This document shows positions 4,737-39,138 of a stretch of 64,000 nucleotides of DNA, in pieces. Position 1 is the stretch's first letter; each line of letters opens with the position of its first letter. Location: the NCBI GenBank assembly GCA_040221175.1, contig JAVJVK010000004.1:62001-126000 (forward strand), read 5' to 3'. Below the pieces are notes generated by a model. That model worked only from the letters and a program-made list of their open reading frames with translations. It was not told the origin of the DNA and made no database searches. This stretch comes from Phycisphaerales bacterium. GTDB lineage: Bacteria > Planctomycetota > Phycisphaerae > Phycisphaerales > UBA1924. The translations under genes were made by a program, and so were the position numbers.

Positions 4737-6466
4737 CGCGTAGGTATGGCGCCGGGTTCATCGGCGGGCGAAGCCCCGGTCGGAGCCGACCAATCCCGGC
4801 GGCCCGCCAGGCGATCCCTGAATTGTGCCTCGGCCCGGCGTTCCTCGACGATCTGGAGGTCCAGCCGGAGCGGAACGATGACGCTGAACATCGAGCCGCG
4901 CCCCATGTCGGACACGAGCTGGATCTCACACTGAAGCACGCCCGCCAGTTCCTTAGCGATAGCCAGGCCCAGCCCGGTGCCGGCATGCTCACGCGTGCGG
5001 CTCGCGTCGACCTGGGTGAACTTCTCGAAGACGCGCTCCTGGTCTTCGGGCGAGATGCCCGGCCCGTTATCGATGACGCTGATGCGAACACGATCCTGCC
5101 CGCTGGCATCGGAGAGCCGTTCGGCCCGCAACTCGACACGCATGGGCCCGGTCGAACCGGGGGCGCCGGTGAACTTGACGGCGTTGGAGAGGAAGTTGAA
5201 CACGACCTGCTGGAGCTTCTTGGGGTCGGTCTCGATGAGCGGCAGGTCGCGCTCCACGTGCTGGACGAGCTCGATGTGGCGGCGCTGGGCGAGCGGGTCT
5301 ACCAGGCCGATGAGCGTCTCGCAGAGCGCGGGAACGCTGACCGGCTGCACGTGGAGCTCGAAGCGGCCGGCCTCGAGTTTCGCCATCTCGAGCAAGCCGT
5401 TGATCATTTCCAGCAGGTCGCGCCCGGCGGTATGGATGTACTGCAAGTACCGCATGCGCTTGGCGCGCTGTTCGGGCGTTTCGGCGACGCCCTGCTCGCT
5501 CGACTGGGCAATCTCCAGCAGCAATTCGGCGAAACCGTTGATGGAGTTCAGCGGCGTGCGGAGCTCGTGACTGACGTTGGCCAGGAAGTCGCTCTTGAGC
5601 CGGTTGGCGTCGAAGAGGATCTTGTTCGCCTCGGCCAGTTCGCTGACGCGACTCTCCAGGGCGCTTCCGGCCGCGCGGAGGCGTTGTTCGTTGGCCTGCA
5701 ACGCGCTGAGCATGGCGTTGAACGCGTTAGCTAGCTCTTCAAACTCGTCGCGCGTGCCCACGTCCACCCGATGGGTCATGTCTCCCTCGCGTACGCGGTC
5801 GGCCGCACGCCGGAGCACCTCGACCGGCTTGAGGATGATGCGATGCAGCAATATATAAAACAGCCCCACCGCCACCGCGAGCACCGCGGCACCTGCGTTG
5901 AGCAGGTAGATGGCATTCACCGCCATGAGCCAGGCGGCGCCCTCTGCCGGACGCTCGAGGGTGATGATGCCTTCCAGGCGTCCGGGGGTCGCAGACTGAT
6001 CCGGATCGGCGGGCGGCGTGGAAGGGCCGCGGATGGCGCGGGCGTATCGCTCCGTGCGTTCGGTACGCGTCAGGATGCGCCACTGGTACTTCCAGCTGTG
6101 GTCGCGCAGTTCCGACTTGGGGTTCTGCTCTCGCTGGAATCGGTTCAGGGCCCGACGCAGGAACGGATCGTCCTGGGCCTGGCGTTCGGCCGAGGCGGGT
6201 GTATGCCAGGTGGCGACGATGCCCAGACGATCGGTCGGCTCGCCGGGCTCGGGCCAGGCCCCCTCTCCGGCGGCACGCCAGCTATCCACCTTCTGACGGC
6301 TGAGCTGGAGTTCGCCGCTGGTGACGAGCGCGCTCATGCGGAGCCAGGCCACGCCCAGCGCGATCGCGATGATGAGCACCAGGGCGGCGCCGAACAGGAC
6401 CAGCGCCTTATCGGCCAGCGCCAGCCGGCGGATGCGGTCGAAGATGGCGCCTGCCAGCTTGAACAT
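4733..6466 (-). CDS. Membrane sensor histidine kinase with HAMP domain
   Basis: Two-component sensor kinase of 577 residues. TM1 is at about 20-42 and an extracytoplasmic sensor region at 43-179 contains an HSWKYQWRI segment reminiscent of Tll0287/DUF3365-type haem or redox sensors, a tentative likeness. TM2 follows at 180-207, HAMP at 208-260 and a short coiled coil after that. The H-box SHELRTPLNSINGF has the phospho-accepting His at 300. The N-box NFLSNAVKFT, G1 VIDNGPGIS and G2 GTGLGLAIAKEL form a complete catalytic domain. No response regulator gene is adjacent, so the partner is unknown. It is divergent from miaB with only 52 bp between the starts. Confidence 0.9.
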   Translation of the reverse strand: MFKLAGAIFDRIRRLALADKALVLFGAALVLIIAIALGVAWLRMSALVTSGELQLSRQKVDSWRAAGEGAWPEPGEPTDRLGIVATWHTPASAERQAQDDPFLRRALNRFQREQNPKSELRDHSWKYQWRILTRTERTERYARAIRGPSTPPADPDQSATPGRLEGIITLERPAEGAAWLMAVNAIYLLNAGAAVLAVAVGLFYILLHRIILKPVEVLRRAADRVREGDMTHRVDVGTRDEFEELANAFNAMLSALQANEQRLRAAGSALESRVSELAEANKILFDANRLKSDFLANVSHELRTPLNSINGFAELLLEIAQSSEQGVAETPEQRAKRMRYLQYIHTAGRDLLEMINGLLEMAKLEAGRFELHVQPVSVPALCETLIGLVDPLAQRRHIELVQHVERDLPLIETDPKKLQQVVFNFLSNAVKFTGAPGSTGPMRVELRAERLSDASGQDRVRISVIDNGPGISPEDQERVFEKFTQVDASRTREHAGTGLGLAIAKELAGVLQCEIQLVSDMGRGSMFSVIVPLRLDLQIVEERRAEAQFRDRLAGRRDWSAPTGASPADEPGAIPTR

Positions 6467-25348: not shown

Positions 25349-25384
25349 TCTTTTAGGGGTGAGACTCGGGCCTTAGCGGGCGTT

Positions 25385-25510
25385 GCCCGGTGGCCTCGAC
25401 GGGGTGCCCGGTGGCCCGGGGGCGGTGCAGGGGCGCCTTGGCCCGTCGCCCGGTCGCCCGCGGCGGTTGCCCGGGGGCCCGCGGGCGGTCCCCGAGGACC
25501 CTCAACCCGG
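25385..25510. repeat. Second 21-bp repeat array (6 units)
   Basis: Six consecutive 21-bp units, of which the first, second, fourth and fifth start GCCCGG: 25385-25405, 25406-25426, 25448-25468 and 25469-25489. The third starts GCAGGG and the sixth CCCCGA. They are more alike than the units of the array at 25097 and are not in phase with it; 36 bp of unrelated, less GC-rich sequence separates the two. The rest of the gap up to the next start (25511-25594) shows only the ribosome binding site GGGAGG. Confidence 0.6.
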
Positions 25511-37855: not shown

Positions 37856-37972
37856 GTGACGAAGCCGGACATGCCAGCCTGGTCGCCGCAGACGTGGTCG
37901 CTCTCGACGAGGCTCGTGGTCATCGTGTGCTTCGTTGCGGTCCTGGCGTTCCTGGTCTTCATCATCGCGTAA
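37856..37972 (+). CDS. 38-residue single-helix membrane protein
   Basis: A GTG start preceded by GGGGAG 7 nt upstream opens a 38-codon frame. Residues 1-19 are polar with two tryptophans (PAWSPQTWSLSTR), and residues 20-38 are one continuous hydrophobic helix (VVIVCFVAVLAFLVFIIA) ending exactly at the TAA. The good binding site, the clean membrane helix and the position 25 bp after ilvE make a real gene likely. No family is recognised. It might be a small regulatory or structural membrane peptide, but nothing in the sequence says which. Confidence 0.6.
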   Translation: MTKPDMPAWSPQTWSLSTRLVVIVCFVAVLAFLVFIIA

Positions 37973-38015
37973 GCGAGCGAGACAATCGGGTTCTCCCGCA
38001 CACGCACGCGGCATC

Positions 38016-38055
38016 CCGCATAGAATGCCCCATGCGGCCTCCTGGCGGGGTTTTT
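38016..38055 (+). terminator. Possible terminator or stem-loop after ilvE unit
   Basis: CCGCAT pairs with ATGCGG around 10 nt (38016-38037), and a TTTTT run follows 13 nt later. The spacing between stem and T-run is too long for a classic terminator. TAGAAT inside the structure also resembles a -10 box, so this could instead be a promoter for the array downstream. Confidence 0.3.
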
Positions 38056-38061
38056 CTGCCG

Positions 38062-38292
38062 CCGTGCATCGCCGGTCCGCGGCCGACCATCGTCAGTCGG
38101 CCGCTGACTGACGATGGTCGGGGCCCGAATCACGACGATCGGCGCGTGACCATCGCGAGTCGGCGGCTGACCCTCGATGGTCGGGGGGCGAATCTCGACG
38201 ATCGAGGCGTGATCGTCGTGAATCAGCCGCTGATTCACGATGGTCGGGGGGCAAACCTCGACGATCGGCGGGTGGATCGGGCCGCGAGCGCG
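38062..38292 (+). repeat. 21-bp tandem repeat array organised in 63-bp stem-loop units
   Basis: Eleven consecutive 21-bp units, most with the core ATCG or GACGATCGG. From 38104 they alternate as three types, A-B-C, so the higher-order period is 63 bp: 38104-38166, 38167-38229 and 38230-38292. Each C/A junction forms a stem-loop: 38083-38121 with a perfect 16-bp stem and 7-nt loop; 38146-38184, imperfect; and 38209-38247, with a 10-bp perfect inner stem extended by G-U pairs. Between the first and third stems two base pairs change together (C-G to G-C and G-C to A-T). It lies between ilvE and rpsD, 240 bp before rpsD. No coding role is supported. Confidence 0.8.
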
Positions 38293-38532
38293 CGGGAAAC
38301 CCCGTTGCACGCTGGCTGGCGGCCGGCGCCCCCGCCGCATGCTTGATTCTGACCGGGTTTTGGCCTTCAATCCGCCCCCGTTGGCCCGCCCCAGGGCCGC
38401 CAGCGGGACCATCGGGCCCAGCGTGGGCCGGATCAGTGCACCAGCCGGCCCGCAGTCGCGGTCGCCGGCCTGATCGCCGGGCATCCTGGCCCGGCACCCC
38501 CGGCGATTCGCCCGAGGGACGGAGATAAGCAG
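38293..38532 (+). promoter_or_regulatory. rpsD upstream region with alternative hairpins
   Basis: GC-rich non-coding stretch before rpsD. Near its end ATCGCCGG (38473-38480) can pair with CCGGCGAT (38500-38507), or CCGGGC (38477-38482) can pair with GCCCGG (38489-38494); the two structures share bases and exclude each other. They lie 26-60 nt before the start codon, which is preceded by CGGAG. In other bacteria S4 represses its own mRNA through leader structure, so a similar role is possible here. That is inference. A TTGATT-like and a TTTTGGCC-like stretch near 38344-38362 were not convincing promoters. Confidence 0.4.
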
Positions 38533-39138
38533 ATGGCCAACTACACCGGGCCCAAGGTCCGCCTCAGCCGCCGCGTGGGCGTTCCCATCGAAGCGGTCGA
38601 GAAGCACACCAGCAACGAGCGCGTCCGCCAGCCCCCGGGCATCCACGGCTTCCGCGGCCGCCGCCCGCGCGACTACGGCATCCGCCTGACCGAGAAGCAG
38701 AAGCTCCGCTTCCACTACAACGTGGGCGAGAAGCAGTTCCGCCGCTTCGTGAAGGAAGCCAAGCGACTCCCCGGTAACAGCGGCGACATGCTGCTGGTGC
38801 TGCTGGAGACCCGCCTGGACAACGTCGTCCGCCGCATGGGCATCGCCCGCACCATCTGGTCGGCCCGGCAGATCGTCGCCCACGGGCACATCCTGGTGAA
38901 CGGTCGCAAGACCGACCGGCCCAGCTTCCACGTCAAGCCGGGCATGGAGATCTCCGTCAAGGAGAAGACCCACAAGCTCTGCCGCGAGAACATGGAGAGC
39001 ATCCCCGGGCACGAAGTCCCCGGCTGGATCAGCTTCAACCCCAGCGAGCTGAAGGCCAAGATCGTCGCGGCGCCCAAGGCCGACGAGGTCCCCTTCCGCG
39101 TCAACACGAACCTGGTTATCGAGTTCTATCGCTTCTGA
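38533..39138 (+). CDS. rpsD: 30S ribosomal protein S4
   Basis: Primary 16S rRNA-binding protein of the small subunit, 201 residues, the usual length. The N-terminal MANYTGPKVRLSRRVG and RGRRPRDYGIRLTEKQKLR, and the S4 RNA-binding domain RLDNVVRRMGIA...ARQIVAHGHILVNGR at about 95-155, are diagnostic. The cysteine zinc motif of some S4 paralogues is absent. It stands alone, not in the rpsM-rpsK-rpsD-rpoA order seen in many bacteria. A GC-rich hairpin without T-run lies downstream at 39164-39199. Confidence 0.97.
   Translation: MANYTGPKVRLSRRVGVPIEAVEKHTSNERVRQPPGIHGFRGRRPRDYGIRLTEKQKLRFHYNVGEKQFRRFVKEAKRLPGNSGDMLLVLLETRLDNVVRRMGIARTIWSARQIVAHGHILVNGRKTDRPSFHVKPGMEISVKEKTHKLCRENMESIPGHEVPGWISFNPSELKAKIVAAPKADEVPFRVNTNLVIEFYRF

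Follow-up and report, generated by a model that had tools for sequence, protein, structure and literature searches.

The array of 21-bp repeats that lies 5′ of rpsD (ribosomal protein S4; 38533 to 39138, plus strand; PF00163 and PF01479) in the 64,000-nucleotide stretch of Phycisphaerales DNA analyzed here, which we call the window, raises the question of whether its conserved inverted repeats work as RNA or as DNA, and what it is about the array that is conserved. The first-pass annotation had described eleven 21-bp units of types A, B and C, and had taken the hairpins that they form as RNA conserved in a leader or small RNA before rpsD. Nine of the units are clear (38083 to 38271, A-B-C three times), and the 63-bp super-period is present both by TRF and in a 21-mer layout, but the first and last of the eleven, at the degenerate left edge (38062 to 38082) and right edge (38272 to 38292), are only weakly related to the rest; none of these repeat features is assigned a strand. 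TRF reports a period of 63 at 38085-38274 (3 copies, 80% match, 0% indel, score 247) and a period of 21 at 38067-38184 (5.6 copies, 63% match, 7% indel). The unit consists of a 14-bp near-palindromic core, GAYC-NN-CG-NN-GRTC, and a 7-bp spacer, and its head-to-tail copies make the array a tandem repeat of the minisatellite kind.

Since the A and B units are approximately reverse complements of one another, they give a 39-nt hairpin. The first inverted pair (A1-B1, 38083 to 38121) has the perfect 16-bp stem (16/16) and 7-nt loop that had been described. In the pair alignment the third (A3-B3, 38209 to 38247) differs from it by the claimed changes on both sides at columns 12/28 and 14/26, and by the claimed G-U (G-T in the DNA) pairs at 5/35 and 7/33. 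The recurrence of the hairpin every 63 bp holds for pairs 1 and 3 but not fully for pair 2 (A2-B2, 38146 to 38184), the stem of which contains C-T and A-C mismatches. The array exists where it had been placed, but it is one of many such arrays genome-wide.

The extent of this set was determined by a TRF census of noncoding clusters of at least 80 bp, for which the gene mask around rpsD was set by hand. In the host genome (G000, 864 kb), 18 of the 20 noncoding tandem arrays have a period of 21, 42 or 63 bp. We take the two others, with periods of 81 and 15 bp, to be coding; of the 21 coding clusters in the host genome, 14 have a period of 81 bp, and inspection of the flank assigns the 15-bp array to a Lys-rich protein. 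The same periods are found in 6/6 noncoding arrays of the congener G004, 1/1 of G005 and 2/2 of G006, and in 0/1 of G002, which has a 24-bp array and no noncoding array of period 21, 42 or 63 in 120 kb. This amounts to 27/30 across the five sampled genomes of the genus, and to 0/4 noncoding arrays outside it (798 kb, six genomes). The window itself holds a second 21-bp array at 25378 to 25494 (no strand assigned), found by both TRF and a lag scan and called noncoding, with an unrelated unit of the GGGCGGTGCCCGGTGGCCCGG type.

The lag scan gives a similar picture. Over 464 kb of the host, noncoding self-similarity reaches at least 60% only at 21, 42 and 63 among lags 12-69, and over 864 kb the leading noncoding lags are 42, 21, 63, 84 and 126, followed by 12 and 105. 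The scan finds 19 arrays in 864 kb, which extrapolates to roughly 75 per genome; fully coding arrays and two with coding fractions of 0.51 and 0.60 were left out. Among noncoding lags, 21 has the top rank in G000, G004 and G016 and the next in G005b, G006 and G012; in G056, G018, G002, G005a, G017 and G046 its rank lies between fourth and thirty-first. Two other genera of the family have weak 21-lag arrays (G016, 0.71; G018, 0.61) that TRF does not list, and among 80 rpsD loci lag 21 reaches at least 60% in the congener L075 and in L079, where all lags are 1.0 and the value is uninformative. Another Phycisphaera genome carries a tandem repeat of a 10-bp unit, with lags of 20, 30, 40 and 50 (L131, ~6255-6370). 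A distance of 21 bp and its multiples is the helical-turn spacing of iteron-like arrays; we found no description of a fixed 21-bp intergenic period in a literature search that left subscription papers largely beyond its reach.

Conservation of phase and of symmetry was assessed on 38 arrays, namely a set of 40, to which the rpsD array had been added by hand and in which the weak G016 and G018 arrays were kept, minus the Lys-rich coding repeats G000_692998 and G000_851408. The proteins encoded by this repetitive DNA (C4:692998 and 851408) are Lys-rich repeat proteins that we take to be histone-H1-like. Cyclic-profile alignment of the 38 arrays gives 8 indels against 2535 mismatches, a ratio of 0.003, as compared with 51/623 and 36/493 (G005) and 60/684 (G004) for ordinary spacers of two relatives, or 0.07-0.09; the ordinary spacers of G002 (2 gaps to 188 mismatches, 0.011) lie nearer the arrays and weaken the contrast. 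When indels were injected, the caller returned 46 calls for 86 (1%) and 54 for 166 (2%), so the scarcity does not reflect blindness alone, yet the caller undercounts and indel-rich arrays are partly lost, as 31/38 injected arrays still passed the scan at 1% and 23/38 at 2%.

Dyad symmetry is frequent. When the whole cyclic unit is compared with column-permuted units, 27/38 arrays have a dyad at p<0.05 (mean z 18) and 11/38 have no significant one; with 11 related arrays dropped by hand the count is 17/27 (z 13). Mirror columns correlate in conservation (z 5). The consensus dyad score is 13.6 versus 10.8 for real noncoding 21-mers of the same genome, and a score of at least 16 is reached by 13/38 arrays versus 2% of those 21-mers. 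A narrower test for a single 14-bp dyad gives p<0.05 in 19/40 arrays. Within the units, the composition signal at 10.5 bp is weak (A/T second harmonic, k=2, z 1.7), which rules out a strong one; the A/T k=6 and RR/YY k=9 harmonics give z 3.5 and z 4.3, respectively. Spacers with an array are flanked by genes in tandem (10), divergent (5) or convergent (2) orientation, and those without by 58, 43 and 13, respectively; these shares are close to the background, which rules out a preference for one gene orientation and argues against a promoter-specific role. By eye, a CCCC...GGGGTTTTT stretch at ~38028-38056 looks terminator-like; a terminator scan tool lists none there, and a separate scan over 19 arrays placed six terminators within arrays and found one directed at an array, so that we make no claim for flanking terminators as a feature of the arrays.

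Unit sequence varies from locus to locus and the 21-bp period hardly does, so that it seems to be the spacing that is conserved. Our preferred reading, which we put forward tentatively and which may well be wrong, is that the arrays are DNA platforms, rows of dyad sites that all lie on the same side of the helix and in which spacing rather than sequence is maintained. The property shared by all arrays would be the 21-bp repeat distance, two turns of B-DNA, with the letters of the unit free to change; this two-turn geometry, together with the frequent dyads and the free letters, is what leads us to propose DNA sites aligned along one side of the helix. The array would act as a row of binding sites in the DNA and not as RNA, a level of action to which its position and lack of strand bias, taken up below, point. 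The putative reader would be a dimeric or oligomerising DNA-binding protein, and the platform could serve as a chromosome organiser, or as an insulator or roadblock that separates transcription units. Each array would be kept homogeneous by slippage and unequal exchange that proceed by whole 21-bp units, and phase changes would be removed by selection. Against this reading, the locus-specific units are hard to square with recognition by one sequence-specific protein, and the weak 10.5-bp signal, the lack of any concentration at promoters, the arrays with no significant dyad and the missing arrays at most of the orthologous places described below count against it as well.

The main rival explanation is that the arrays are neutral minisatellites without function, made by copying in which a 21-bp step is built in, whether through slippage, template switching or unequal exchange tied to two turns of the helix. 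We consider it somewhat unlikely; several observations fit it. The orthologous places that we compared, rpsD, smpB, glmS and terC, were picked because the host has an array there. A 21-bp array is present in 6 of 23 relatives (rpsD 2/6, smpB 1/6, glmS 1/6, terC 2/5), and in four of these six the unit, judged by eye, is unlike that of the host, an observation that counts both for this rival and for the platforms. The other 17 of 23 have no array at these places, from which it follows that an array at a given place is dispensable; a G001 stretch downstream of smpB, with lag 21 at 0.60, was set aside by eye as coding. A contingency comparison of orthologous spacers yielded zero spacer pairs with an array on both sides. 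Fixed-step copying is likewise consistent with the occurrence of arrays in every gene orientation and with related arrays at different loci, such as those in the host spacers C4:87037-87595 and 214828-215555 (75% over 286 bp). Such relationships indicate that the array set probably spreads by copying.

Further cases of related arrays in the host were noted. The relative of the 25378-25494 array, at ~C4:215209-215387, includes flanking sequence in its 75% match over 286 bp. The arrays at C4:716863-717076 and 743643-743974, ~27 kb apart, have a unit in common (77% over 150 bp), and as one lies upstream of glmS and the other in a convergent spacer, copying between places is indicated. The arrays at C4:252356, 569624 and 620909 have a common flank around CCAGGGCGGTTTCTCTATCGGA, less exact in the third, which may be a terminator or the boundary of a mobile segment.

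Template switching within quasi-palindromes would also yield changes on both sides of a stem without any selection. What speaks against the copying explanation is that ordinary slippage should produce periods other than 21 bp, and 1-bp indels in their usual proportion, few of which are seen; nor are we aware of a slippage mechanism that advances by a fixed 21 bp. There is some precedent in the phylum (Okazaki et al. 2022, PMC9426551): noncoding deletions of lake Planctomycetota, and noncoding structural variants more generally, often fall at intergenic tandem repeats, and slippage of the polymerase is named as one cause that is possible. Those repeats resemble the present ones in being intergenic, tandem and variable, but the consulted part of that paper states no 21-bp period, no dyad symmetry and no turnover at constant phase for them.

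A second alternative, proposed in the first-pass annotation, is that the hairpins are conserved as RNA and belong to a leader or small RNA; we now regard this as quite improbable. A promoter-like motif, TTGATT-N17-TTCAAT (38343 to 38371, plus strand), recognized by comparison between genomes, bounds the array on the rpsD side. Its degenerate form, TTGAT[TC]-N17-TT[CGT]A[AC]T, is found 160 to 200 nt before rpsD in 7/7 genomes of the genus and has a single occurrence in the 864 kb of host sequence, in which rpsD is included. A generic promoter scan lists nothing at 38343-38371, and the rpsD promoter call is accordingly drawn from conservation. The array lies upstream of this motif in all three species that have an array at rpsD (G000, G001 and G004), and in G005 and G006 the motif stands, with no array, within some tens of bases of the end of the aminotransferase gene. 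A motif downstream of the array would place the array outside the rpsD transcript, and it is probably not the rpsD leader, as far as the sequence allows this to be judged. Between the aminotransferase gene and the array the window could also encode a 38-aa membrane peptide (37857-37973; GTG start, hydrophobic tail), for which the short spacers of G005 and G006 have no room.

The rpsD gene does have a conserved structured leader RNA, which is another element, separate from the array and placed between the promoter-like motif and the gene (38412 to 38505, plus strand), found by covariation and a model search. In an alignment of 13 sequences, both-sided changes occur at 16/27 pairs, 96.2% of cells are paired, and 0/500 shuffles reach any of five measures, with the proviso that fitting the alignment to the structure biases the covariation measures upward. 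The search took 75 of the 80 rpsD loci as input and gave matches at E<=0.05 in 15 of these 75, 8 of them in the training set and 7 new; all are on the plus strand and at most 200 nt before rpsD, with matches nowhere else in the 75 loci at that threshold, and the host genome has a single match at E<=0.01. This leader is a candidate S4 autoregulatory leader; a search of the literature in which subscription papers were largely out of reach found no description of one of this kind.

The hairpins of the array are nevertheless conserved, and this part of the earlier claim stands. Compared with dinucleotide shuffles, the array gives a better fold on either strand (z -7.4 for plus, -5.2 for minus), although in its whole minimum-energy fold, as read by eye from the dot-bracket string, the third hairpin is retained and the sequences of the first two pair otherwise. 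In support of an RNA role, at least one strand of 26/40 arrays has a better fold than its unit-permuted controls (25 permutations each, with a few such cases to be expected by chance). For covariation we used a gap-free alignment of 10 inverted pairs from 8 loci in 3 species, in which 91.9% of cells pair (reached by 3/500 shuffles), four pairs of the GATCATCG family change on both sides (38/500), and the covariation score is reached by 1/500. The paired cells and the four both-sided changes indicate that the dyad symmetry of rpsD-type arrays is conserved; they do not assign it to RNA, since a palindromic DNA site, or template switching, would be expected to give both-sided changes just as readily. 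More generally, both-sided changes in palindromic DNA can mimic RNA covariation, and caution is advisable.

Strand likewise does little to separate the readings. It had been argued that the G-U pairs were possible only in plus-strand RNA, but the A-C mismatch of pair 2 would be a G-U pair on the minus strand, and the argument therefore cuts both ways. The ten aligned pairs hold 6 G-U versus 3 A-C cells, which is in favor of RNA, but a wider list of near-perfect inverted pairs, with window pairs 2 and 3 left out, holds 2 G-T versus 6 A-C. The sense strand folds better in 6/16 tandem-flanked arrays (G000 5/12, G004 1/4), a test blurred by the different G content of the strands and for which orientation came from a simple gene caller, or from the genes themselves in the case of rpsD. 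No Rfam family (Rfam 15) reaches its gathering score over the array or over the rpsD leader, and the family hits listed in a further scan all fall short of theirs. Given the position of the array upstream of the promoter-like motif and the absence of a clear strand bias, we have dropped the RNA leader reading for the array.

A third explanation, that the arrays are mobile palindromes scattered through the genome in the manner of REP/BIME elements, appears highly improbable to us. The arrays are extragenic and palindromic, they occur in both orientations, and sub-families are common to a few loci. The rpsD type, for example, is found at three places in the host genome, including contigs C12 and C19, and in the congeners G001 and G006, and the search also gave a short match in G017 (E 2.5e-4). 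However, the other arrays of the host have other units, and with units differing between loci in this way a single dispersed sequence family is ruled out. The strict tandem phase does not fit either, and the GTAG/CGTC tag expected at an unpaired palindrome end is missing from the rpsD array, which has no GTAG and has CGTC only within the stem. As far as the consulted part of the REP/BIME source goes (PMC3733652), those elements are extragenic palindromes, often in inverted pairs, as here, but each family has its own sequence and tag, whereas the present arrays have a phase in common and not a sequence.

That the arrays encode heptapeptide repeats (21 bp being 7 codons) is most improbable: at least one open frame is present in 40/40 arrays, but the 137 open frames exceed the 112 of permuted arrays only somewhat, with the two truly coding arrays counted in, 38/40 arrays either are not called as genes by a simple codon-usage caller or are spacers picked by eye (the rpsD array is among the 38, the caller having given a miscalled antisense ORF there), and a hydrophobic heptad pattern in an open frame is found at p<0.05 in 2/40, the chance level, on which ground we reject it. 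A CRISPR array is ruled out, as had been noted at the outset: the repeats are regular, as in CRISPR, but there are no variable spacers and the whole unit repeats.

The closest functional analogs may be plasmid iterons and partition-site arrays, in which direct repeats about two helical turns apart, with a sequence of their own in each replicon, are bound by dimeric proteins. The platforms that we favor would resemble these in their two-turn spacing; they differ from them in being at many chromosomal loci, and the four identified genes neighboring the rpsD array include no Rep or Par genes. Prokaryotic satellites have been surveyed by Subirana and Messeguer (2019, PMC6749651), who found long repeats to be mostly multiples of 3 and read them as coding. 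The present arrays are similar in being tandem repeats scattered in the genome and often unrelated in sequence, but the consulted part of that survey describes no genus with a single noncoding period.

A more ambitious form of the platform reading is that the genus keeps dozens of intergenic platforms that are read by helical phase and dyad shape, with the letters turning over freely, and that these organise the chromosome; we regard this as doubtful on present evidence. Sequence is what normally identifies a tandem repeat; here it is the repeat distance that is constant. That the sequence varies between loci and between congeners and the two-turn distance stays suggests either that the geometry is constrained or that copying proceeds in a fixed step, and to our knowledge neither has been described for a bacterial chromosome. 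If the chromosome-organising reading is true, the 21-bp ruler would itself be a heritable and selected feature.
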